Positions 6,285 to 60,300 of a DNA stretch of 64,000 bases are shown here, piece by piece; position 1 is the stretch's first letter; each line of letters starts with the position of its first letter. Location of the stretch: contig CAUYUJ010005002.1 in NCBI GenBank assembly GCA_963575745.1, positions 1,016,979-1,080,978 on the forward strand, in the 5' to 3' direction. Both the position numbers and the translations under genes were made by a program. The notes under the pieces were generated by a model. The model ran no database searches and had not been told where the DNA came from. It saw only the letters and a program-made list of their open reading frames with translations. The DNA comes from Prorocentrum cordatum. Lineage: Eukaryota; Sar; Dinophyceae; Prorocentrales; Prorocentraceae.

Positions 6285-6590
6285 AAAATGGCGAAAGTCC
6301 TGGGCCGATTTCGATAGGTGGCTGGGTTCCCCGGTTCCATGTTCTTGGTTCAAGGCCGGGTTCCCTGAAGTCCGTTCCGGGGTTCCCGGCAGTGTAAGGT
6401 TGGCTGGGTTGCCGGGTTTCTCGTTCGGTGGGCTCTTGGGTTCCTGGCTCTCGATTCTGGGGTCCCCGGCAGTGTAATATTTGGTGTTTGTTTTGCTTCT
6501 TGGTTCCCTTTTTTGGATTCCTGGCAGCGTAAGATTCTCGGGGTCTCGATGTCTTGGTTGTGGCAAGTGCCTGAGTCATAGATCGTATAA
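6285..6590. repeat. Dispersed repeat DR1, copy 1
   Basis: A GGTTCC/GGGTTCC-rich segment beginning GGCGAAAGTCCTGGGCCGAT. It contains the landmarks CCCCGGCAGTGTAA and GGGGTCTCGATG, and matches 7245-7625 in the same order. Copy 2 is longer because one internal subunit (CCGATTTCGGTGGGYGGCTGGG) is repeated. Both copies are followed by GA- and TA-rich microsatellites, so the unit of duplication probably includes them. No coding potential recognised. Confidence 0.7.
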
Positions 6591-7244: not shown

Positions 7245-7625
7245 TTTGGCGAAAGTCGCAGGCCGATTTCGGTAGGTGGCTGGGTTCCCAGGTCCCTGGT
7301 TCCGGGCTCCCGGGTTTCCGTTTCCGAGTTCAAGGCCCGATTTCGGTGGGCGGCTGGGTTCCAGTGTTCCCGGTTCGTGAGGTCGGTCATTGGGTTCCCG
7401 GGTTTCCCGCTCCGGGGTTCTTAGCATTGTAAGGTTGGTTGGGTTCCAGGGTTCCTGGTTCGGTGGGCGGTCGGGTTCCCGTTTCCCAGTTCCCGATTCC
7501 GGGGTCCCCGGCATTGAAAGATTTGGTGGGTTTCCAGCTTCCCAGGCCCCTTTATTGGATTTCTGGCAGCTGCAAAGTTCCAGGGGTCTCGATGCCATGG
7601 TTGTAGCCCAACGCCTGGGTATTTG
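7245..7625. repeat. Dispersed repeat DR1, copy 2
   Basis: Second copy of the 6285-6590 repeat, about 0.95 kb downstream and in the same orientation. It opens GGCGAAAGTCGCAGGCCGAT and includes GGGGTCCCCGGCATTG and GGGGTCTCGATGCCATGG. An internal duplication makes it about 70-80 bp longer. The DNA between the copies (6990-7245) has no recognised gene. Confidence 0.7.
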
Positions 7626-8335: not shown

Positions 8336-8360
8336 CAGCGGGGAGGAGTACATATGCATT

Positions 8361-8492
8361 GGTCTATCACCGCGGTATTGTTTCAGCGTTGTGCGGGCAC
8401 GTTGACAAAAAAATCCGCGGTCCGACCCTGTTGCACACAAGCTGCTTGGCGTTTGCTTGCGTATTTCGTCTCCGTACCTGTTCGGGCTCAAG
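8361..8492 (+). repeat. Split direct repeat A1
   Basis: 132-bp segment starting GGTCTATCACCGCGGTAT and ending TGTTCGGGCTCAAG. It aligns over its whole length with A2 at 14076-14205, sharing CCGACCCTGTTGCAC and GGCGTTTGCT blocks in the same order. It is the 5' terminus of the retrotransposon. A TA microsatellite lies just upstream and the Cys-rich start of the gag-like ORF lies 45 bases downstream. Confidence 0.85.
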
Positions 8493-8536
8493 GATTTGAG
8501 CGCGCCTCCTGCGCGTAACGGAGGGCATCGGATCTT

Positions 8537-10019
8537 TTGTCAAGTTCCTCGTGTCCGGCGACCCCGGAGTGCCCCAACTTGAAGTGCCCGGCGTGCCACG
8601 TCACGCCGTGCCCGCCGAGGGTGGGTTGCCCTGCGTGTGAGGCGGCAGGCGTGTGTTCGCCTCTCGAGGCGTGCAGGGCGTCGGCTTTCCTGTTGGGGTC
8701 CCGGCTCGGGCTGGAGGCGACGGGTGCGAGCTGGACGGTGGCGCTGTGCGTGAAGCAGGTGGCCGTGCGGAGGCAGCCGCAGGCGACGGTCGGGGCCGAT
8801 GACGGCGCTGGGGCAGGCAGTGGCCTGGCTGAGGTGCATCGCGGCTGGAGCCCACCTGTGGCGTCTAATGCTGCTCTTGGCGCCCCTGCGGTCTTTTGAA
8901 GGCGAGTACGTCTCCCTGGCGCCGGACGGAGATGTCTACATCGGGGACGCCGAGGCGTTTCGGAACTCGGACATCGCCGAAGTCGCGTGGGAGACAGAGA
9001 CAGGGCGGAGACCTACTGAGGTCGGAGACGACTGGACCTACGGCTTCGGGGCGTTCCCACGCGGGCGTCTGCTGTCGGGCCTGATGGAGCTGGCGGCTGA
9101 CACCGCCGCGGGCGAGGAAAGGCGTCGTGGGGCAGCGGTGGCGCCCCTTCCGAACCTGGGAGGCGGCGGCGGCACTGGCAGCCCGAGGGGTTTTCAGGCG
9201 GCGGGGGGCTACCCGCCCTCGCCGTCGGTGGAACCCGCGCCCGACGGGGGCTTGCGAAGAAGCACGGTAGCTCCGGAGGGTAGCGGGCACGCGGCCCGAG
9301 GCACCACGGCGCCAGAGGGGCGCTGGGTGGTCGCGGCCGGGGACTGCGCTCTGGGGTTCGCTGCGGGCGACGAGGTCCGCAGGACGGCGGACCTGGCGGT
9401 GGCCCCTGATGGCCGCCGGGCCCTGGCCCTGGCTCCGCAGTCAGGTGAATGGGTTTCGTGGGGCGGCTCGGCCCCGACCAGACGCCCGAGGAACACGCCG
9501 CTGTGCTAGCGCCTCCGCCTGCGAGCTCCGACGCCCGTATGCTGAGCGAGCAGTTAGACGGGCAAGGGATCAGGCAGGGCTTGCGGTGCGACGTGGTGCT
9601 CGAGATCCAGCAGGCGGAGCTCAGGGATTGTCGCATGCCTGGGCCGCGCGCAGTGCCCTGGTGCGCGCAGTTCGTGGAGCACGAGCACAGGGAGCGGGCC
9701 GTCCATTTTTTCAGAGAGACATGTCCAGGCGGACCTCCCGAGCTGGGGAGGGCTGGAGGTGATCCTGCGAAACTGCCAGGTCATCGAGTTCCGTTGCGAG
9801 AACAGGAGCACGGGCGGAGAGCAGAGCGACCAGACCCAAGGGGCGGCAGGGAGGAGGCGGCCTACTCGATGGCGGCTCGAAAGGCATGACGGAGGGGATG
9901 ATGAGCTGCCCCGAGCTGGTTGAGTGGGCACCGAAGGAAATCGGCCACGACGTCGACGTGGCGGAGCAGATGAGGAAAGCGCGGGAGGATGCCAGACTCT
10001 CGCGCAAGGATGACGCGTG
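8537..10019 (+). pseudogene. Gag-like ORF1 of the YR retrotransposon (frameshifted)
   Basis: Product recognised from dinoflagellate retroelement proteins; exact biochemical role unknown, probably nucleic-acid binding. Frame 2 from 8537 has a Cys-rich head (CPxxxCPxC, then CxxC steps). Frame 3 from about 8870 carries the landmark APDGDVYIGD and a tyrosine/phenylalanine pair about 45 residues later, then WVVAAG and a Gly/Asp/Val-rich stretch ending at a stop near 9508. Frame 2 resumes with GPRAVPWCAQF at about 9650. Around 9755 another frame gives LEVILRNCQVIEFRCE. The last conserved block, SCPELVEWAPKEIG followed by a basic MRKAREDARLSRK helix, ends at TGA 10017-10019. At least four frame changes show that it is dead. 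The order of these blocks matches the family, which supports the reconstruction of one broken ORF. Confidence 0.65.
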
Positions 10020-10399
10020 ATCAGCCAGGGCCAGAGGGCGGCCCCACCCTGCTGGCCATCAGACGAGAAGGGGAGGGCGGTGGATCTCAGCCCCGTGCGG
10101 TTTTTTCTGTTCAGCATGACGCGCTGCCTCTGGCTGTGCCCGATCGAGTGTCTCGTGGCGGGAGCCTGCCCTCGCCGTCGCGGTCAATCCGCCGGCGAGT
10201 GGGGGCGATGGGGGCACCGCTCATGCTGGGGGTCTGGCGCGGCTCGAGCGCTCAACGAGCTCGGAGGCCGCGCAGTCGCAGCCGCCGGTGAGACCTCGCC
10301 AGCGGGACGCAGGCCCTTTGTGCATGACCTTGGCGAGTCGCACGTTCGCATGTGTGTCTCGCGATGTGGGATGCCCCCAGCTGACCTCGCTGGTCGGGG

Positions 10400-11620
10400 G
10401 GCCTGCCAAGAGCTGCTGGCCTCCCACAGCTACCAGGGGACCCCGTGGCAGTGGCCCCCCTGGGCATCGATCGCCTCAGCCCCCCTCCGCCCGGGGTTCC
10501 TCGGGGCTTGGAGGGTCTCGCTCCCAGGGGTTTGTGGATGACCACCTCTCGTCGAAGGATTCAGCAGGCGAGCGTTTGATCTCCGCAGGTGTTCCCAAGC
10601 GCCCTTTCATCGTCCTCGCGAGCATGAGCGTCTCGTCCGGTCGTTAGCTCAACGTGGGATGCTAGAGTTTTGCTCGAGCCATAGAGCAGTGCGTTTTTTC
10701 TTCCGGCTTGGAAGAAAACATATTCAGCGTGCAATGGAAAATGCATCTCGGTCGAATTGCCGGTGTAGGGGCCCGCCAAAGACCCGGCTGGCCTTGGGGG
10801 ATTCTTTTTTGTCCACGTTTCTTTGCCGCAGCCGACCTGGCCATCGAGTTGGGCCAAACCGACGTCCAGAACGCCTTCTACCAGATGGCGGTCCCAGAGG
10901 TCCTGAGGCCTTACTTCGGCCTCCAGCGCGCGAAGGTTGGGCGAGTGGGCGTTTCCGAAAGTGGCGAGGGGGCGCTGGTTTCTCCTGGTACTTGAATCTC
11001 ACCCAGGCTGAATGCATTGGCGATGCGATGGACGCGTGCACTAAATTGGTGCCAGGGAGTTCTCGGGGCAGCCTGTGGTCGCGTCCCCGGGCTTGGAAGT
11101 GAGAGCAGAGTTCAGGATCGTTGATCTCTTCCTTGTCTACTCCCAGTTGCCCGCGCAGCATATGTGGGTAATTTTGTCGCCTTCTCGTAAAGCACTGGCA
11201 GAGCTCGTTCGGCGGCCGATGGGGGTTGCGATCGAGCTCGCGCGCGTGGGCAGGCGCTCGCGCCCCGTGGAGGCGAGGCCCGGAGGCGAGGTTCTTGGCT
11301 GGGTGTTTTCCGAGCGACCGTCCGGCGGCGATGGGAAAACCAGCAGGGCGCGGCGACTTCGATTTTTCATTTCAGCATGCTTCGCGCATGCGCTCGTTGA
11401 GCGGCAAGCAGGTGGAGGTCTTGGTTGGTCACTGCACTCATCAGTTTGTACTTCGTCGGAAGCTCTTGTCTGTCTTTGATGGCGTTTACGCTTTTATTGC
11501 TGGGCATCGCGGGGGCAGCGCGGGAATCTATGGCGTGGTTAGAAGTGGACTTCGAGGGGCCTGCTCGCTCCTATTTGCACTCGCGATTCTGAGTGGGGTC
11601 CTGGGGCGACGGAGACTGAG
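10400..11620 (+). pseudogene. Reverse transcriptase of the YR retrotransposon (decayed)
   Basis: RNA-dependent DNA polymerase remnant. Upstream linker ELLASHSYQGTP at about 10410-10450. Palm motif A is clear in frame 1 as TDVQNAFYQM at about 10858-10890, then PEVLRPYFGLQ. The GFSWYLNLTQ block lies in frame 3 near 10975. The catalytic box appears at 11161 as YVGNFVAFS, where the family has YVDN; the second catalytic Asp is replaced by Gly (GAT to GGT), followed by a stop. The connection region follows: GEVLGWVFSE (frame 2, about 11285), VEVLVGHCTHQF and LLSVFDGVYAFI (frame 3, 11420-11500). The frames alternate at least five times. The fingers domain between 10500 and 10800 is poorly preserved. 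Confidence 0.75.
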
Positions 11621-11779
11621 GGCCTGGGGGCCGACGTCAAGCACGCCGCGAGCTTTCCAGAGGCGCGGAGGTTCAAGGTGGGCGGCGAGGGGGGCCCGCG
11701 AGCAGGCGTCGGAGCGGATCGAGGAGATGAAGGCCGCGGGGGATGAGGAGAAGGAGCTGAACGTGACGTAGCAGGGAGT

Positions 11780-12130
11780 TCACGTGAGCTCCCAGAGCGA
11801 GTCGTTGATCTCGTTGCTCTCTCGCTGATCCATGGGCCCTGGAAGTTGGTGATCTCTCAAGCATGTGAACGTATCGAGAGTATCCCAGTCTTGGAGACTC
11901 GATCTGCCCTCTGGGGGCTTCGTCACATTCTCAGGAGTAGGCAGAACTGGCGCGAGCGTTAACTTGTCCTCAGTGAATCGATGTCCGCTGTCTTGGCTCT
12001 GAGCAAGGGGCGAACTCCGGCCCCTGGCATGTTGCGAGCGGTTCGTCGCTGGGCTGCGCTGGCGCTGGTTTCTGGATGCTCAGTGCACTTGCGGTGGATC
12101 TCCGACGAGGAGAACCCCGCTGATGGCCCC
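11780..12130 (+). pseudogene. RNase H domain of the YR retrotransposon
   Basis: Domain that degrades RNA of the RNA-DNA hybrid. It reads in frame 2 from about 11783 (ELPERVVDLVAL) through PVLETRSALWGLRH, with the conserved Glu in LET. An in-frame TAA at 11960-11962 is followed by LVLSESMSAVLALSKGR, where the family normally has Asp-Asn (LSDN) and here has Glu-Ser. It ends with LRWISDEENPADGPSRR at about 12093-12142, which is the diagnostic C-terminal motif (SE/DxNPADxxSR). One stop and one altered catalytic position over 110 residues make this the best preserved part of the element. Confidence 0.8.
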
Positions 12131-12389
12131 TCGCGGAGGGGGATGGCAACGCCGGGAGCCTCGGGAGGCGGAGCCAGCAGAGCTGCCGCGCGAGCCAGCG
12201 GTCGCGGGCAGCCTTCGGCGAGCGCCGGCAAGCGGCAGCAGGCGGTGGCGGAGACGGAAGCGGGGGCCCCTACTCCGGCACCCGGGCCGATGGCGCCCGT
12301 TCGGCGGCGGGCCCAGCCACGACGTCGACGCGTAGCTGCGCGCGCGGTTGCCCGCCAGGGCTCGGCGGCGCAGGGGAGGCCCGACTTGG
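12131..12389 (+). pseudogene. Ala/Pro/Arg-rich linker between RNase H and recombinase
   Basis: Frame 2 continues without a stop through a low-complexity Gly/Ala/Arg/Pro-rich linker after NPADGPSRR. A linker of this kind usually joins RNase H to the recombinase in these polyproteins. No domain is recognised inside it. Confidence 0.5.
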
Positions 12390-13124
12390 GTTACCTGCAG
12401 ACGGCGAGCGTGGGCCCGCGGATCCAGTAGATGTACCTGGCGAGCTGGGGGGTGCTCGGGGAGCGGGCGAAGGGCCAACGTCTCCGCCGCGCGCCCATGG
12501 GCCAGGGGGAAGACGCGATCGTCGACCTCATCGACTTCCAGTACATCGGGGCGACGCATTCAAGCCTCGGCGCGCGCCTGGCGTCAGCAGCCTGCCACCC
12601 GCAGCGGGGCCGGCAGAAGGGGGGCCCGCCTGCTGTCGGCGCGGCAGGCCGTGCGGGGCTGGAGTCTGAGGGGCCCCAGCGTGTCAAGGCTGCTGACGCC
12701 CCGGGTAATGGCGCGCCGCCTCTGCGACTGGCTCGCGGGCGCAGGCTACTGGAGCGCGGCTGCAGCTGTCCTGATGCGCGGGGTGTCCTACCAGGGGCCG
12801 ACAGTGGCGCTGGGGCGTCTGAGGCGCCGGCTGGCCCCACCCATGAAATGCGGCGGGGACCAGCGCAATTCCAGATGGATTGCGATCCCGTCGAAGGCGA
12901 ACAACTGGGACGGCTCTCGGCCTCTCGACCTGGCGGACCACGTTTCCGCGATCGCGCTGCTGGGGGCTCTTTGGAGCTGCTTAGGCCCGCTGGGCGCGCG
13001 GCGCCACGGAGGCTGGACTCAGTCGCTCGGTGCGGCGTTGGCAAGCATCAGGAAGGCTGACGGAGCAGTTGCACTAACTGCCACGCGGCGCGCAGCTCTC
13101 TGCGGCCAGATGCGCCCCCCTTAG
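12390..13124 (+). pseudogene. Tyrosine-recombinase-like region, C-terminal part missing
   Basis: Expected role: joining of the circular DNA copy to the target by a tyrosine recombinase. Frame 2 gives LQTASVGPRIQ, an in-frame TAG at 12428-12430, then a core-binding-like stretch with EDAIVDLIDFQYI and THSSLGARLASAACH. The frame changes to 3 near 12600, giving QAVRGWSLRGP, RLCDWLAGAGYWSAAAAVLM and VSYQGPTVAL. The last lies where the family has YLRPGE with the catalytic Arg, so that Arg appears to be lost. WDGSRPLDLADH fits the following DDSxxLD block. The HxxR and Tyr motifs are not found; frame 3 ends at TAG-TGA (13122-13127) and the next domain begins at once, so the recombinase C-terminus was probably deleted. 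The assignment rests on order and partial motifs. Confidence 0.55.
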
Positions 13125-13127
13125 TGA

Positions 13128-13961
13128 CCCCATCATGAACAGGCACTCTCACTTCTCAAAGCAAATTTCCCTATTGTGAAGTTTGCTGTAGAACTGTTAG
13201 CAGGGTCTGGAAACTTCTCAGCGGCCTGGAGGTGCCAGATTGGGTTACCAATCGTGGAGTTCGATATTCGTCATGGTGAGCAGTACGATTTGACCGTGCC
13301 GATCGTTCAAAAACTACTTCGAGGCTAGATGACGGCGTCTTGGATCATCGCCGTCTGGATGGGCACCCCTCGTTCTAGCTTCTCACGTGTCAGAGATAGA
13401 GGGGGTGGCCCTCCGAGGCTGAGGAGCGACGCCTTGCCGCTCGGGCTGCCAGGGCTGTCCCCAACGGATGCAGGAAAATCACGAGTGGGCAATGTGTTGA
13501 TGATTTTCTAAGCCCCCATTCTCAGGCTGAGCGCTCGTCTTGTCGTTCCCTGCGCACTTGAATATCCAGCGACCAGAAGGATATGGTTGTGTCCAGCAAT
13601 GGTGTCCACCTGCCACCTTTGCCCCGCGTGCTCACTTAAAACTGGCTTCTGCATGTTCGGCATGCCGCGGCGCAAGAGAACAAGCATCGTGAGTGTGCAT
13701 GCTGACCTTGATTTGTGCTTTCGTCGATGCAAAGGCCGAGGTAAATTTGGCAATCGTTGTAAACCCCGCGTTGAGCTGCCCGGGAAATGTCAGGGGGTCT
13801 TTCGAACTTCCATTGCCAAGCCATGTCCTAAGTCGCTGTGCAAAGCTCTCGCTAAGCGCTTCAAATACGCCCTTGCTGCCATGGAGATTTATGGGTACTG
13901 TGATTTTCCGATGCCTCCACTGAAAGCGGTCGGCGTTTCGGGAGTTTCATCTTCTCTGTGA
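13128..13961 (+). pseudogene. C5-cytosine-methyltransferase-like domain of the retrotransposon
   Basis: All in frame 3, broken only by TAG 13326-13328 and TAA 13509-13511. Motif I-like FAVELLAGSGNFSAAW (about 13179) is followed by an acidic VEFDIRHG. Motif IV-like GTPRSSFSRVRD at about 13362 has Arg where the catalytic Cys of PC should be. GPPRLRSDALPLGLPGLS is a block typical of the dinoflagellate version. LEYPATRRIW at about 13559 fits motif VI (usually ENP/ENV), and FGMPRRKRT at about 13652 fits motif VIII. C5-methyltransferases on retrotransposons are known from dinoflagellates and charophytes. The loss of Cys and two stops mean that it is inactive. The assignment to the C5 family is by motif order; a more distant Rossmann methyltransferase is the alternative. 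Confidence 0.65.
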
Positions 13962-14074
13962 CCGGTCCAGAGTGCAAGGTTTTGAGTCGTGTGCTCCTGT
14001 CTTGTTCAGGGCAAAGTGTTGTCGCCGCGACATATCGCTGCCAGCCTAAATATCAAAAGAGCGAGCCCAAAGCT
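13949..14074 (+). repeat. Split direct repeat B1
   Basis: 126-bp segment beginning ATCTTCTCTGTGACCGGTCC and ending GAGCCCAAAGCT. It is repeated as B2 at 14254-14379 with shared blocks CCGGTCCAGAGTGCAAGG, GTCGTCGCC-type and CGACATATC. It begins at the end of the methyltransferase frame and abuts A2. Confidence 0.85.
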
Positions 14075-14075
14075 T

Positions 14076-14205
14076 GGTACATCACCGCGGTATCGTTCTA
14101 GCTTCGCGCGGGCGCGTTGACGGAAGGCCGTTGCCCGACCCTGTTGCACGCAAACTGCTCGGCGTTTGCTCGCATCTTTCTTCTCCGTACTTGTTCGGGC
14201 TCAAG
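14076..14205 (+). repeat. Split direct repeat A2
   Basis: 130-bp copy of A1, starting GGTACATCACCGCGGTAT and ending TTGTTCGGGCTCAAG. It is placed between B1 and B2. A 48-base unrelated spacer (14206-14253) separates it from B2. Confidence 0.85.
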
Positions 14206-14253
14206 ACCCCCAACCCGCCCTGCCATGGCCCCCTGACCCCCTGCAGGAGTTGA

Positions 14254-14379
14254 ATCTTCTCTGTGGCCGGTCCAGAGTGCAAGGTTTTGAGTAGCGCGCT
14301 CCTGTTTTGCTCAGGACAAAGCGTCGTCGCCACGACATATCACTTCTGGCTTGGATGTAAGCAGAGAGAGCCAAAAGCT
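14254..14379 (+). repeat. Split direct repeat B2, 3' end of element
   Basis: Second B copy, starting ATCTTCTCTGTGGCCGGTCC and ending GAGCCAAAAGCT. A TA microsatellite follows immediately, which marks the right boundary of the retrotransposon. Confidence 0.85.
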
Positions 14380-14439
14380 ATACATTATATATATGTATGT
14401 ATATGCTAGCCATCGTGGGCCCCAAAAAGCATATTATTT

Positions 14440-15115
14440 CAGTCTACGTGGTGCAATCTATGTGATGCAGGTTATCTGGTGCTATCTACGTGGAGCAATG
14501 TGCGCTGTGTGAGCTACGCGCTGCGAGCTACGTGGTGCAACCCATGTGGTCGGAGCTAAAGTATTCATCTATGTTGTGCAATATATGTGGTGTGGGCTAC
14601 GTGTTGCAAGCTGTGCGGTGCAACCTATAGGGTCTGAGCTAACGTATTAATAGACGTTGCGCAGCCTATGTGGTGCAAGCTGCGATGTAAGATATGTGGT
14701 GCAACATCTGCGGTGGGAGCTAAACTGTTCACATATGTGGTACAATATATGCGGTGAAAGCTATGTGGTGTGAGCGACGTGATGTAACATATGTGGTGCA
14801 GCCTATGTGGTAGGATCTAAATGACGAGTCTATGTTGTTTAATCGATGTGGTTTTAGCTACGTGTTGCAATCTACGTGGTGCAGTCCACGTAATGCAATA
14901 TTTGCGGTGCAGCCTATGTGGTGCGCTCTACGCGATGCTATATGTGCGGTGCAAGGTACACGGTGGAATCAAGGCAGCGTGATTTGTGCGACGCGACGTA
15001 TGCGGCGCAAACAACGCTACTCAATCCACGGAATGCAATTTATTTTGTGCAATCAGTGCGGCGCAGCAGATGCGGTGCAATCTATGTCATGTACTTCGCT
15101 TGCCGAATATTAAAT
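14440..15115. repeat. 14-bp satellite (GCTAYGTGGTGCAA)
   Basis: About 45 imperfect copies of a 14-bp unit, consensus GCTACGTGGTGCAA with many substitutions and small indels. It precedes copy A of composite repeat CR1. The same 14-mer, reverse-complemented (TTGCACCACGTATA), flanks the inverted CR1 copy at 59.93-60.30 kb, and short runs of it sit at the CR1 junctions near 17.27, 19.57 and 20.88 kb. It is thus part of the CR1 element rather than independent. Confidence 0.8.
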
Positions 15116-16095
15116 AGTCAATTCCACGGTCATCCCATTCAATCGCCCGCAACTTGGTTTGCAAAACCCATGCGGAAGCGATTGCGATAAGTGCTTGGTG
15201 ATGGCTGGTGCATCTGCGGCCGCGCTAGCCCGCGCATGCTCGCTCGCGCGCCCCCTCCAGCTAGTTTGGCGCGACCGACGCGAACGCGGTGGCGCTGACC
15301 GCTCGGCGCATCCCAGCGGGCGCTTCAGTGCGAGTCGGCGACTTGGGCGGGCGCGGTATCATGGCAACGTCGACAACGGTAGCCACGATGATGATATTTA
15401 CGATGTTGCTGACGATGCTGGCAGCGACGACGGGGCAGCCAGTGGCGTTGCCGATGCTGATCGCGCCGGCGACGATGACGGCGTCTTCGCATCGGTGATG
15501 AAGGTTCTAGAAGGAGTTTGAAATGCGCTCGGGGCAGACGCGCGAGAGTGGCCCGCATGGTCTTGTTGGACACGGATCGTGCAACCCCAGCACGCGCGCA
15601 AGTGCGTTCGAACGATTTCGATATATGCGCGCGCGAAGTTTGTTTGGTAGCATTGTATGAACATGGTGAACAACGCATTGCTTTTTCTTAAGAATGTGTA
15701 GGAGCGCGCGCAAGCTTTTTGGGTGCATTCGTTCTGCGAAACCTTGTGTTATTATACGTTTGTTGGACACTCGATTTTGAAACCTTTACGACGCCGACGA
15801 TTTTAACCGATTTCGGCATGCGCGAGCGACGACGCGCGCGCGCATTTCGTCGCATATGTTGCAAGGGATTCTTGAAAACGCATGGTTTGTGATGAGCGAG
15901 TTCGCGCGCATAGTTTATTGCAGAGGATGGCGGGGGGGGGTCGATGCCGGTTGGGCTGGGCTGGTGCGAGTTCATTCTCAGGATGGACGATGGGGCAGAA
16001 TCGCACGCAAATTGCGATTCGAAAAGGGTGGCGGTAATCCCGGGGGGCGGGGGGGGGTAGAGTGAATTTCTTCAACGGAGAATCGATGCGATCCA
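15116..16095 (+). repeat. Composite repeat CR1, copy A
   Basis: About 1 kb. The head carries CGCAACTTGGTTTGCAAAAC. Next is a GACGATG-rich body encoding an acidic frame (15159-15521: 120 codons with Asp-rich stretches ending ASVMKVLEGV). Then come two modules with GATTTCGGCATGCGCG plus CGACGACGCGCGCG, and the tail GGGGGGTCGATGCCGG, GTGCGAGTTCATTCTC and GGAGAATC. The acidic frame recurs in copies B, C, E and F, so it may descend from a coding segment, but frameshifts and stops differ among copies. No known protein domain is recognised. Confidence 0.75.
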
Positions 16096-17290: not shown

Positions 17291-18560
17291 GCAATTGATT
17301 TTTACCCATGCATTCCATGCTCTTGCAAACGCCCCACCCACCCACCCGCAACTTGGTTTGCAAAACCCGCGCGGTGGCGATTGCGATGCATGCTTGGCGT
17401 TGGTCGGTGCATCTCCGCGGCCGCGCCGGCCCTGGCGCGCGCGCAGCGGCCAGCTAGTTCGGCGCCGCCGGCGCGGCCGCGGTTGCGCTGGCCGCCGGGC
17501 GCGCCCCAGCGGGCGCTTCGTTGCGAGTCGGCGACTTGGGCGGGCGCGGTGTCGCGGCAGCGCGGACTGCGGTAGACGCGACGATTGCAGCGGCGATGGC
17601 GGTGGCGACGTTCGCACCGACGAAGGCGCGGCCAGCGCGGGCGCCGACGCCGAACGCGCCGACGACGATGGCGGCTCCCTCGCATCGGCGATGAAGGTTT
17701 TGGAAGGAGTTCGACATGCGAGCGCGGCCGACGCGCGAGAGTGGCCCGCATGGTTTGACTTGACGCGAATCGTCTCCCCCCCCCCCCAGCACGCGCGCAA
17801 AGGCGCTCGAATGATGTCGGCGTGCGGCGCCAGAGGCCCGCTTGGCAGAATTCTATGAAGACGTTGGAAAACTTATGGTTTTCTTAAGCATACGTGAGAG
17901 CGCGCGTACAACATTTCTTTGTAAAATGACGCTGCGAAGCCTTAGGTTTTTGTTTGTGTGAACATTTGGTTTTGAAATCGTTGCGAGACCAAGGGTTTTC
18001 GAAGGATTTCGGCATGCGCGCGCGAACGCGCGCGCGCGCGTCGCCCCGTGCTTTTTTTCGCGCTAGGGATTTTCGCGGCGGAGCGCGCGCAGAAGCGCTC
18101 GAACGATTTCGACGCGCGCGCGCGAAGCCCGTTTGGTAGAATTTGTTGGAAATGTTGAGAACCGATGGGCTTCTGAGGAATTCGCAAGAGCGCGCGCGCT
18201 TAAACAAAAACCCGCGCTGCGAAACCTCATGTGTTTCATATGCTATTTCGGCGCTCGACTCTGACATCCTTACGAACCAGATTTATTATTACTATTCAGA
18301 GCACTTTGAACTGACTATATATATATATATATACAAAGTCGGCATGCGCGTGCGACGACGCGCTTGCGTGCACTTCGTCGTATTTGTTGCAAGGGAATGG
18401 TGAAAGCTGCTGATTTTTTTATAAACGCATGGTAGGTTTTGGCAGAGGATGGCGGGGGGGGGGTCGATACAGGCTCGTTGGGGTGGTATGAACTCACATT
18501 GAGGATGGACGGTGGCGCATAAGCATATGTTAATAGCATTACGAAAATGTGGATCGATAG
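17291..18560 (+). repeat. Composite repeat CR1, copy B
   Basis: Starts with CTCTTGCAAACGCCCCACCC and CGCAACTTGGTTTGCAAAAC. It holds the longest version of the shared acidic frame (17295-17858, 187 codons), with ERADDDGGSLASAMKVLEG, RHASAADAREWPAW and a C-run at 17780. Repeated GCATGCGCGCGCG modules follow at about 18010, 18100 and 18340, and it ends with the GGGGGGGTCGATACAGGC tail near 18450. A TA run lies at about 18317-18333. It is not known to be expressed. Confidence 0.75.
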
Positions 18561-18599: not shown

Positions 18600-19572
18600 C
18601 TAGCCGGGCTTGAAATTGCCGCCTCCATTGCCCGCGCAATCATCCCGCTTGGCCGCCCCCACGCGGAAACGATTGCGATGGGCGCTGTGCGTTGGCCGGT
18701 GCACCTGCGGCCGCGCTAGCCCGCGCATGCTTGCGCGCGCTGCGGCCAGCTAGTTTGGCGTGACCGACGCGAACGCGGCGGCGCTGACCGCTCGGCCCAT
18801 CCCAGCGGGCACTTCAGTGCGAGTCGGCGACTCTGGCGTGCGCGGTACCATGGCGACGTCGACAACGGTCGACGCGATGATGATGCGACTCTGGTGACGA
18901 TGCTGACAGCGGCGTCGGGGCAGCCGGCGACGGTGCCGATGCTGATCGCGCCGACGACGATGGCGGCATCTTCGGGTCGGTGATGAAGGTTTCGGATGGA
19001 GTTCGAAATGCGCGCGCGGCAGACGCGCGAAAGTTGCCCGCATGATGTTACTGGACACGGATCGTGCCACCCTAGCCCGCGCGCAAAGGCGTTCGAACGA
19101 TTTCGACATGCGCGCGCGCGAAGCTCGTTTGGTACATTCTATGAACCTGTTGAAAAACTTGTGGTTTTGTGTTTCTGGGGGGCGAATCCGGAAGTGCGCG
19201 CGCGCGTTTTCATTGGTTTGGAAATATGCGTTGCGAAACCTTTTATTATTGCATGGTTTTTTGGACGCTCGATTTTGAAGCCCTTGCGACCTCGATGGTT
19301 TTGAAGGATTCTGGCATGCGCGCGCGACGACGTGCGCGTGTGCACATCGTCACATTTGCTGCAAGTGATTCTTGGAAATGGGTGATATTTGCTAAACGAG
19401 TGCGCGTGCATAGTTGTTTTTGCAGAGGATGGCGGGGGGGGGGTCGATGCCGGCCTGGCTGGGATAGCGTGAATTTATGTGTAGGACGCACGTGTAAATT
19501 GCAATGCGAAACAAAGGGGGGCCTATATTCCCAGAGGGGGAGGAGGGGGGTAGAGGCCTTCTCTTATCATAA
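18600..19572 (+). repeat. Composite repeat CR1, copy C
   Basis: Lacks the AACTTGGTTTGCAAAAC head (replaced by CCCGCGCAATCATCCC-type sequence) but keeps GCGATTGCGATGGGCGC onward. The acidic frame survives as GADADRADDDGGIFGSVMKV and RNARAADARKLPA, followed by two stops. GGCATGCGCGCGCGACGACG modules lie at about 19090 and 19312. The tail GGGGGGGGGTCGATGCCGGC lies near 19435. Confidence 0.75.
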
Positions 19573-20870: not shown

Positions 20871-21830
20871 GAGAATCTATTCGGTGCAAGCTATGTTGCT
20901 CAATCTCCGTAGTGCAATTGGTTTTGACCCATGAGTTGACACATCCCATGCTCTTGCAAACGTTCCACCCACCCACCTGCAACTTGGTTTGCAAAACCCA
21001 TGCGGTGGCGATTGCGATGCATGCGTGGCGTTGGCTGGTGCATCTCTACGGCCGCGCGAACCCTAGCGCGCTCGCGCGGGCCAGCTCGTTTGGCGCCACA
21101 GACGCGAACGCCGTGGCGCTGACCGCTGGGCGCATCCCAACGGTCATTTTAATGCGAGTCGGCGACTTGGGCGGGCGCGGTATCATGGCAACGCCGACGA
21201 CGGTAGACGCGATGTTGATAGTGGGGACGTTGGTGACGATGTTCGCGCCGACGACGGCGCGGCCAGTGCGGGCGCCGATGCTAATCGCGCTGGCGACGAT
21301 GACCGCGTCTTCGATTCGGTGATGAAGGTTCGGGGAAGGGTTCGACATGCGCGCGCCGCTGACGCGCGAGAGTGGCCCGCATGATTTGAGTTGGCGCGGA
21401 TCGTGCCTCCCCTGCACGCGCACAAGTGCGCGCGATTGATGTCAGCATGCGGCGCCAGAGGCCCGTTTGGCAGAATCCCATGAAGACGTTGACGAACTTA
21501 CGTTTTTTTCCAAACGAGCAAAAAATCGCAAGAGCGCGCGCAAATTTTGTTTGAAAACTGATGTCCTTGAGTTGTTGAATGTTTCTTGGACTCTCGGTTT
21601 TGCAATCGCTCCGAGACCAACGGTTTCTGAAGGATTTCGGCATGCGCGCGCGGCGACGCACGCGCGGGCACTTCGTCCCGTCTGTTGCAAGGGGTTCTCG
21701 TGACGGCACGTGCGCAAAGGCGTTCGCTCGAACGATTTCGACATGCGCTTGCGAAACCCATTTGGTAGCATGTGTTGAAACGGTTGAAGCACCTATGTTT
21801 TTTCAGACCTCGCACGGAGAATCTCGGTGG
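20871..21830 (+). repeat. Composite repeat CR1, copy E
   Basis: Starts GGAGAATCTATTCGGTGCAA, followed by a short run of 14-mer units and the AACTTGGTTTGCAAAAC head. The acidic frame is intact enough to read DANRAGDDDRVFDSVMKV and RHARAADARE. GCATGCGCGCGCGGCGACGC occurs at about 21640. It ends at GGAGAATCTCGGTGGCAA (21821), exactly where the pentamer array begins. Confidence 0.75.
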
Positions 21831-59039: not shown

Positions 59040-59925
59040 GCGCCCCACCCTACATTCGAAATGTGAACTCATACTACCCCAGCCCAGCCACTATCGACAC
59101 CCCCTTGTCATCCATGGCAGATATCACTATACGCGGGCACCCGTTTGTCAACAATCAAGAGTTTTTTTTCAATCATCTGTTGCAAACGACGGGGCGAAGT
59201 GTACACGCGCGCGCCATCGCGCGCGCATGCCGGAATTCGTTTGAAAATTCTGTTTCGCAGGGTTTTCAACATCGATTGTCCCGAACACATATACACATTT
59301 TTTCAACCAAAATGAATCTGCGCGTTCGCTCTTGCGACCAAGCTGGCCTCTTGCGCGCGCGTGCTGGAATCATTCGAGTGCCCTTGCGCGCGTGCTGGGG
59401 GGGGCACGATCCTTTTTCGGATGATACCATGCGAGCCACTCGCACCCGTCGGCCGCGCGCGCATGTCGAAATCGCTTCAAAGATGTCATCACCGACGCAT
59501 GGACACCATCATTGTCCTCGGCCTGGTCAGTATTGGCGCCGTCATTGGTCTTGCCGTCGTCATCACCATTTACGTCCTCAGTGTCGCTATAATACGACCT
59601 CACCGCGTCTGCTGTCGTCGACGTCGCCATGACACCGCGCCCGCCCGAGTCACCGGCTCGCACTGAAGTGCCCGCGCGTCGGCGCGGGTGCTGATACGCG
59701 CTAGGAATTCCCAGGCGGTCAGCGCCACCGCGGCCGCGGCGGTCGCGCCAGACTGGCTGGCCGCTCCGCGCGCGAGAATGCACGCGCTAGTGCGGCCGCA
59801 GCGGTGTGCCTACCGGCGCCAACCGATCATCGCAATCGCCGCCGCTTGGGATTTGCAAGCCAGGTTGCGGGTGGGTGGGTGGGATGATTTTGCGATCAAT
59901 GGATTTGTCAACCTCAAATTCGGCA
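59040..59925 (-). repeat. Composite repeat CR1, copy F (inverted)
   Basis: Reverse-complement copy of the 15-21 kb family. On the minus strand it reads head (ATCCCACCCACCCACCCGCA, ACCTGGCTTGCAAATCCC), GACGATG-type body and GCATGCGCGCGCGATGGCGC module, and the tail GGGGGTGTCGATAGTGGCTG closes at about 59090. The shared acidic frame (minus, 59783-59370) keeps TDQAEDNDGVHASVMTSLK and RHARAADGCEWLAWYH. Confidence 0.75.
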
Positions 59926-60300
59926 GGGTGGGTTGCACCGCGTATATTGGCCCACGTATACTGCACCACATCGGTTGCACCGCATTTATTGCACCAAGTG
60001 GATTGCACCGCACTGGTTGCACCACGTATACATCACAACATAGAGCGCACCACGTATTTTGCACCACCCATTTAGCATGGACCACACAAAAAAATCACCA
60101 CATAAACTGCACGACATAAATTGCCCTATCGTAATTGCAAGCCATCCTTTGCACAACATAGATCGCACGGCATATGCTGCACAACACCATTGGCACAACA
60201 TAAACCGCACTACGCAATTTGCTCCAGATAGTTTGCAATCCATAGTATGTGCCCCATATACTACCCCTCGCAGATTGCACAACATACTTTGCTAGAAGCA
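59926..60300 (-). repeat. 14-bp satellite, inverted copy
   Basis: About 25 imperfect units of TTGCACCACGTATA, the complement of the 14-mer at 14440-15115. It lies on the same side of CR1 copy F as the direct satellite does of copy A, confirming that satellite and CR1 body travel together. Confidence 0.8.

Follow-up and report, generated by a model that had tools for sequence, protein, structure and literature searches.

Introduction

Among the retrotransposons of the DIRS order, those with split direct repeats are divided by the key of PMC4157794 into PAT elements, which possess a methyltransferase, and Ngaro elements, which do not. The PAT elements described there (Pat1, Toc3, Kangaroo) combine split direct repeats with reverse transcriptase (RT), RNase H, a methyltransferase and a recombinase, and in some of them the internal repeats are situated at the 3' end. 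Ngaro elements are about 6 kb long, encode a recombinase and have the order A1-[open reading frames (ORFs)]-B1A2B2 (PMC8547959, PMC4157794); these articles and PMC3266345 describe them without a methyltransferase. DIRS1-like elements have inverted terminal repeats and separate ORFs for gag, for the recombinase and for RT, RNase H and methyltransferase; pol and recombinase overlap in about half of the 28 elements of this kind considered, and in DIRS1 they may overlap, but with the catalytic part of the recombinase outside the overlap (PMC3266345). As for dinoflagellates, DIRS elements of A-coding-B-A-B layout with a Dnmt3 in pol (SymbioDIRS-Dnmt3), as well as DIRS elements lacking a DNA methyltransferase (DNMT), have already been published from Symbiodinium (de Mendoza et al. 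2018, PMC5890265). In this article we analyse a stretch of 64,000 nucleotides of Prorocentrum cordatum (contig CAUYUJ010005002.1, positions 1,016,979 to 1,080,978; "the window"), in which an original prediction had placed a DIRS/Ngaro-type element with an intact split-repeat layout. Positions 8359-14378 very probably represent a decayed copy of a P. cordatum family of the DIRS order, which is characterised by split repeats, microsatellite targets, a C5-methyltransferase-like domain and a recombinase that is apparently nested in most copies.

Results and Discussion

Split repeats in the window and in other copies

The two predicted repeat pairs are real and lie only a few bases away from where they had been placed. 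A1 (8359-8492) and A2 (14074-14205) are 80.6% identical over 134 columns (E=1.3e-30), B1 (13941-14074) and B2 (14246-14379) 81.3% identical, again over 134 columns (E=8.9e-33). They are arranged as A1, coding region, B1, A2, 40 bases and B2. No further match of the A and B repeats was found within the window, and the inverted pairs of the region were short and unrelated to the element ends. The terminal repeats of the window copy and of 12 other loci (see below) are direct, in contrast to the DIRS1-like elements with their inverted terminal repeats and internal complementary regions. The family resembles the DIRS1-like elements in having ORFs for gag, for the recombinase and for RT, RNase H and methyltransferase, with an apparent overlap of pol and recombinase.

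The P. cordatum assembly (4.13 Gb, 21,875 contigs) was searched with the A2-B2 region of the window, which gave at least 39 matches, and with that of a younger copy, which gave at least 60, with 40 of 55 candidates scored in this second search. From the assembly 20 loci of about 8-9 kb each were fetched. The complete order A1...B1-A2-B2 was present in 12 of the 20 loci (L021-L023, L025-L033), which bears out the expectation that many loci would have it. The identity within each pair was 94-99% in 11 of these loci and 80-84% in L022. All four repeats could also be recognized, from match positions, in C16122. The remaining loci were less complete: L024 had a partial A1 with B-A-B, L038 had B-A-B with no A1 seen, L034 and L035 had a full A1 with a single B, L036 and L037 (which look like one insertion seen twice) a partial A1 with a single B, and L039 and L040 showed A1 and ORF1 only, the fetched stretch being on the wrong side of A1. 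The copies with a single B may have arisen by recombination between B1 and B2, or else from a circle whose two B|A junctions had recombined before it integrated. The expectation that A1 and A2, as well as B1 and B2, of one copy are always mutual closest matches held in part only and was given up as a general rule, since the partner within the copy was the best or tied match in 8 of 13 cases for A1/A2 and in 7 of 13 for B1/B2 (the ends used for L022 are uncertain).

The observations that had been named as contradicting the placement did not turn up. No pair of ordinary long terminal repeats (LTRs) surrounded the polyprotein in the 20 loci, and among the matches examined no A or B repeat stood away from the element, the seemingly isolated matches L003, L009 and L010 adjoining ORF1, or ORF2 and ORF3. 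An LTR retrotransposon (Gypsy, Copia) was rejected, as two interleaved repeat pairs instead of one LTR pair were seen in 12 of 20 loci. That the repeats arose by chance, or are rearranged LTRs of nested elements, is virtually impossible: apart from the many repeats of the region, nothing would speak for it, and it is refuted by the significance of the repeats and by the same four-part order with exact junctions and different flanks in the 12 other loci.

Element ends, junction and integration target

Younger copies begin with TTGGTAGATCACC and finish with GAGTGCAATGC, close variants included. At the border between B1 and A2 (...AATGC|TTGGTAG...), 11 younger copies and the window copy read like the last bases of B2 followed by the first bases of A1; in L022 the junctions are obscured by a GA repeat and the ends were set by eye, and the right end of L032 is possibly off by a few bases. 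Models of split-repeat elements predict a B|A junction of this kind for the circular form (PMC4157794, PMC3266345). Transferred from the younger copies, the borders of the window element are TTGG at 8359 (start of A1), 14073|14074 (B1|A2) and ...AAAGC at 14378 (end of B2), which gives a length of 6020 bp; the proposal that the termini can delimit full elements is thus confirmed by exact ends in related copies.

The flanks of the copies are mostly alternating purine-pyrimidine simple repeats, such as (TA)n, (TG)n and (TATG)n. At least 80% alternating steps over 20 bases were counted in 14 of 18 left flanks and 16 of 19 right flanks, and in 1.9% of the controls (20,000 random 20-mers, half from the window and half from the fetched loci); the mean alternation was 0.89 on the left, 0.91 on the right and 0.47 in the controls. 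The base next to the element was A in 16 of 18 left flanks and T in 18 of 19 right flanks. Since C16122 has the same (TATG)n repeat on both sides, the alternating repeats belong to the target and not to the element. Apart from a shared T at both ends no target site duplication was visible, as is expected of the DIRS order, though one could hide in the simple repeats. The flanks of the window copy reach 0.58 on the left and 0.95 on the right; L031, where neither flank alternates (0.53 and 0.42), is a clear exception that tells against the preference. No report of such a microsatellite target was found for DIRS-order elements among the main texts of open-licence papers, which is weak evidence of absence, and the available text of PMC5890265 does not mention a target preference for SymbioDIRS-Dnmt3. 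Endogenous nimaviruses are also mobile DNA that targets simple repeats, and tyrosine recombinases there target telomere repeats; they are, however, large DNA viruses, whose users of (AT)n carry a DDE transposase and not a tyrosine recombinase (PMC10871703).

Some further features of the flanks were recorded. The copies with A1 and a single B (L034-L037) end at the same kind of target. In L036 and L037 the partial A1 abuts, near 1260-1340 in the orientation of the element, telomere-repeat-like (CCCTAAA)n. The two outer flanks of L035 are 66% similar to each other, which we interpret as a sign that the element inserted within a tandem array. In L039 (2490-6240), extensive tandem repetition of units of some 80-90 bases is situated upstream of an A1.

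RT, RNase H and the tyrosine recombinase

In L031 an open ORF2 of 1193 amino acids contains RT with the motif YVDN, then RNase H, and a recombinase in which LRPSE, HGLRH, GGW and RRYQ can be read. YVDN was present in 15 of 16 copies scanned by motif. The Pfam family RVT_1 scored above its cut-off in the related protein P0006 of Symbiodinium and below it in the relatives P0005, P0010 and P0015 and in L031; ORF1 had no Pfam match.

The L031 recombinase matched the integrase families phrog_1 (9.4e-11) and phrog_216 (1.3e-4) of PHROG, and phrog_1 was also matched by the recombinases of three of five relatives (best 3.4e-8). In the alignment of five relatives the R, K, YxxR, W and Y positions were invariant; the first residue of the HxxR motif is Y in these five, H in L021 and L031, and C in L026. 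When 16 other copies were scanned for motifs, five (L025, L026, L031, L035, L036) showed the complete set of R, [H/Y/C]xxR and W-Y. The search for an intact recombinase in another copy, which had been suggested with the prediction, was thus successful regarding catalytic motifs and PHROG, and unsuccessful regarding the Pfam profile. Two results weaken the assignment: Phage_integrase remained below the Pfam cut-off in every member scanned (0.15 for L031, 0.00066 for P0006), and the AlphaFold model of the recombinase was too poor for use (pLDDT 39.8). Sequence searches of the PDB gave nothing with L031 ORF2 and, with the recombinase alignment, two matches at E 0.4-0.5, which we take as chance; when viral contigs were scanned, L031 ORF2 had no relative among them. 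Pfam scans of L031 ORF2 and the relatives did not list an integrase of the rve family, which excludes nothing.

The same part of the recombinase is missing in five copies (L023, L024, L028, L029, L034), while RT, RNase H and methyltransferase are largely kept. Since the shared gap removes HxxR, they probably moved with a recombinase provided in trans, and this subfamily may be non-autonomous.

The methyltransferase-like domain and the classification of the family

A domain that the original prediction had overlooked sits between the recombinase and B1. It matches no Pfam methyltransferase family, nevertheless several lines point to a C5-methyltransferase-like fold: phrog_757 was matched at 6e-8 by the domain of two of the five relatives, the predicted structure had a pLDDT of 74.5, and the 50 rows listed by VIA-align were all C5 methyltransferases or their complexes. 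Dam chains also appeared in Foldseek, further down (E 0.046). The motifs FxGxG, GTPC (with the PC) and ENP can be read in it. The weak matches (0.27, 0.38) given by the domain of the family alone count against this assignment; the PDB sequence search with the L030 tail alone yielded four matches at chance level. Judged from the sequences, the domain is under purifying selection (dN/dS = 0.10 between subfamilies). In the RT protein P0017 (from ENA) the order is reversed, the same methyltransferase-like domain standing ahead of a C-terminus that looks recombinase-like by eye.

The placement in the DIRS order holds for this family, given the layout in 12 of 20 loci, the RT and RNase H, the tyrosine recombinase and the exact ends. 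The name Ngaro could not be upheld, because the family has a methyltransferase-like domain and Ngaro is described without one. An ordinary Ngaro element, with a recombinase besides RT and RNase H between split repeats but lacking a methyltransferase, would agree with the size, with the internal repeat pair downstream of the recombinase and with the common orientation of all genes (PMC4157794, PMC8547959); it is quite unlikely in view of the conserved domain, which is kept by purifying selection between recombinase and B1. By the key of PMC4157794 the family is closer to PAT, with which it shares the split direct repeats, the set of enzymes and, as regards some PAT elements, internal repeats at the 3' end; its methyltransferase differs in apparent fold type and in position, since published DIRS-class methyltransferases are, according to PMC5890265, of the Dam-like adenine type and the domain found here appears C5-like and stands downstream of the recombinase.

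The nearest published relation is SymbioDIRS-Dnmt3, likewise from a dinoflagellate host, with the A-coding-B-A-B layout, a cytosine methyltransferase in pol and a tyrosine recombinase, the DNMT being in the ORF of RT and the recombinase in a separate ORF as in L035 (PMC5890265). These likenesses would allow the P. cordatum family to be the same type, merely more diverged, the more so as the recombinase is in another frame in both. We consider this unlikely, though to be taken seriously: compared by description, the published domain is detected by Pfam and clusters with Dnmt3, whereas the P. cordatum domain is compact and divergent, has no Pfam methyltransferase match, reads GTPC and ENP and follows the recombinase region.

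A recombinase probably nested in the pol frame

Of 16 other copies scanned, 11 show an overlap of ORF1 with ORF2 at ATGGCGCGTGA. Further downstream, 11 of 15 younger copies carry the recombinase in the +1 frame relative to RNase H, with L032 deviating from this and L036 giving a mixed picture. In L035 an open ORF2 of 1434 amino acids extends through the methyltransferase and a recombinase ORF of 437 amino acids, in +1, starts at an ATG above the NPAD motif of RNase H; this ATG of the recombinase frame is common to 10 of 17 copies listed. In P0005, P0010 and P0015, RT and RNase H are joined to the methyltransferase within one protein each, and P0015, by label a Symbiodinium kawagutii gene, is without intron because its gene span equals its coding length. 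When the other frames of these three were scanned, the C-terminal motif of the recombinase was best placed in the linker in +1, with z values of 7.6, 6.0 and 7.1, respectively; L035 as positive control gave 7.2, and four other proteins at most 3.8. The motif was in frame 0 in P0006 and P0008, and in neither frame in P0009 and P0017.

It could be supposed that the second open frame is a by-product of a coding sequence with 69% GC, the recombinase being part of a single polyprotein (as in P0008, L031 and L025) and the +1 position a sign of decay. Several findings lean that way and weigh against nesting. P0008 carries all domains in one frame, L025 and L031 read RT, RNase H and recombinase in one frame, in P0006 the recombinase is also in the RT-RNase H frame, and the methyltransferase is in the frame of RNase H in only 7 of 15 younger copies. 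Synonymous shuffling was borderline, the second frame being stop-free in 7 of 9 copies with P 0.05-0.10 each, values that are not independent; L032 had two stops (P 0.39) and L022 one (P 0.016). The low synonymous divergence of the recombinase is common to RNase H (mean pS: RT 0.119, RNase H 0.075, recombinase 0.060, methyltransferase 0.149). Neither the shuffling nor the low synonymous divergence was therefore relied on as proof of dual coding. What argues against a mere by-product of composition is the same +1 phase in the 11 younger copies and in P0005, P0010 and P0015, the last being by its label the single-exon kawagutii model, together with the common ATG. We regard the by-product explanation as doubtful, if by no means negligible, and on balance we favour the dual coding of the recombinase inside the pol linker. 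For DIRS-order elements no report of a nested recombinase was found in the literature searched (with the same limited weight), and the available text on SymbioDIRS-Dnmt3 (PMC5890265) makes no mention of nesting.

Decay of the window copy

The copy at 8359-14378 is, as judged from its sequence, dead, decayed and non-functional, and it is old because its repeats diverge by 19%. The predicted RT and RNase H were indeed found between A1 and B1 with broken frames; the word intact is thus right for the layout alone. Losses of the recombinase, also missed by the prediction, include the box-I Arg, which is replaced, about 50 residues with HxxR, which are gone, and the catalytic Tyr, the position of which is occupied by Trp. 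A protein database search with a frame of the window across the recombinase region gave no match. The methyltransferase domain is the best conserved remnant, where PR replaces PC and EYP replaces ENP. The features are collected in Table 1.

Table 1. Features of the decayed element and its right flank, in window coordinates
Feature	Position	Strand	Basis
A1, left terminal repeat, element start TTGG	8359..8492	+	80.6% to A2; start as in younger copies
ORF1 (gag-like position) remnant, three frames	8549..10017	+	tblastn with L023 ORF1, about 34-63% per piece
ORF1 stop / ORF2 ATG overlap	10006..10020	+	motif as in 11/16 other copies, one base changed
RT remnant, two frames, internal stops, YVGN vs YVDN of relatives	10713..11223	+	tblastn, 56-69% to L031 RT
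RNase H remnant	11552..12226	+	tblastn, 59% to L031
Tyrosine recombinase remnant, three frames	12386..13143	+	tblastn to L031 ORF2
C5-methyltransferase-like domain remnant, two stops	13200..13904	+	67% to L030 domain
B1, internal repeat	13941..14073	+	81.3% to B2, E=8.9e-33
A2, internal repeat, abuts B1 directly	14074..14205	+	repeat comparison and junction reading
B2, right terminal repeat, element end AAAGC	14246..14378	+	repeat comparison and junction reading
Right flank, alternating purine-pyrimidine target	14379..14408	.	alternation 0.95 over 20 bases

The neighbourhood of the element is also rich in repeats. Directly to the right of the element (14440-15080) there are degenerate arrays whose unit, similar to CTATGTGGTGCAA, measures about 14 bases, and related sequence recurs on the minus strand at 59930-60200. 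A dispersed repeat of about 130-170 bases occurs in five copies which are 76-85% alike (15131-15300, 17345-17493, 18658-18789, 20976-21124, and 59717-59887 on the minus strand). To the left there is an imperfect duplication of 200 bases (6372-6564 and 7407-7607, 76% alike), where GGTTCC-like units are abundant.

Conclusions

According to the published split-repeat model, an RNA copy of the element would be reverse transcribed, the internal B1A2 stretch would supply the missing ends, and a DNA circle with the B|A junction would be recombined by the element's own recombinase into the T of an alternating repeat. The family encodes ORF1, a pol frame with RT, RNase H, a linker and the C5-methyltransferase-like domain, and a recombinase that in most copies appears nested in +1 in the linker. 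The nested frame might let recombinase and methyltransferase be produced in different amounts, and the methyltransferase, the activity of which is predicted, might modify the DNA of the element itself.

As far as could be seen, three features are apparently new: the integration target, a methyltransferase-like domain of divergent type and, with moderate confidence, the nesting of the recombinase. Whether there exists a dinoflagellate-wide lineage of split-repeat DIRS elements, with an overlooked compact C5 methyltransferase, a recombinase lying wholly in the +1 frame of pol, integration of the B|A circle junction into alternating microsatellites and copies with a partly deleted recombinase spread in trans, is in our estimation an evenly balanced question.

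For a poorly annotated type of dinoflagellate polyprotein that is barely seen by Pfam, the exact ends, the signature of integration and a map of the proteins are now at hand, so that the limits and the age of such elements can be determined in genomes of several gigabases. Should the nested recombinase and the divergent methyltransferase prove true, DIRS elements that a Pfam search would call DNMT-less would in fact carry a cytosine-methyltransferase-like enzyme, and they would be added to the small number of mobile elements for which simple repeats serve as a safe harbour.

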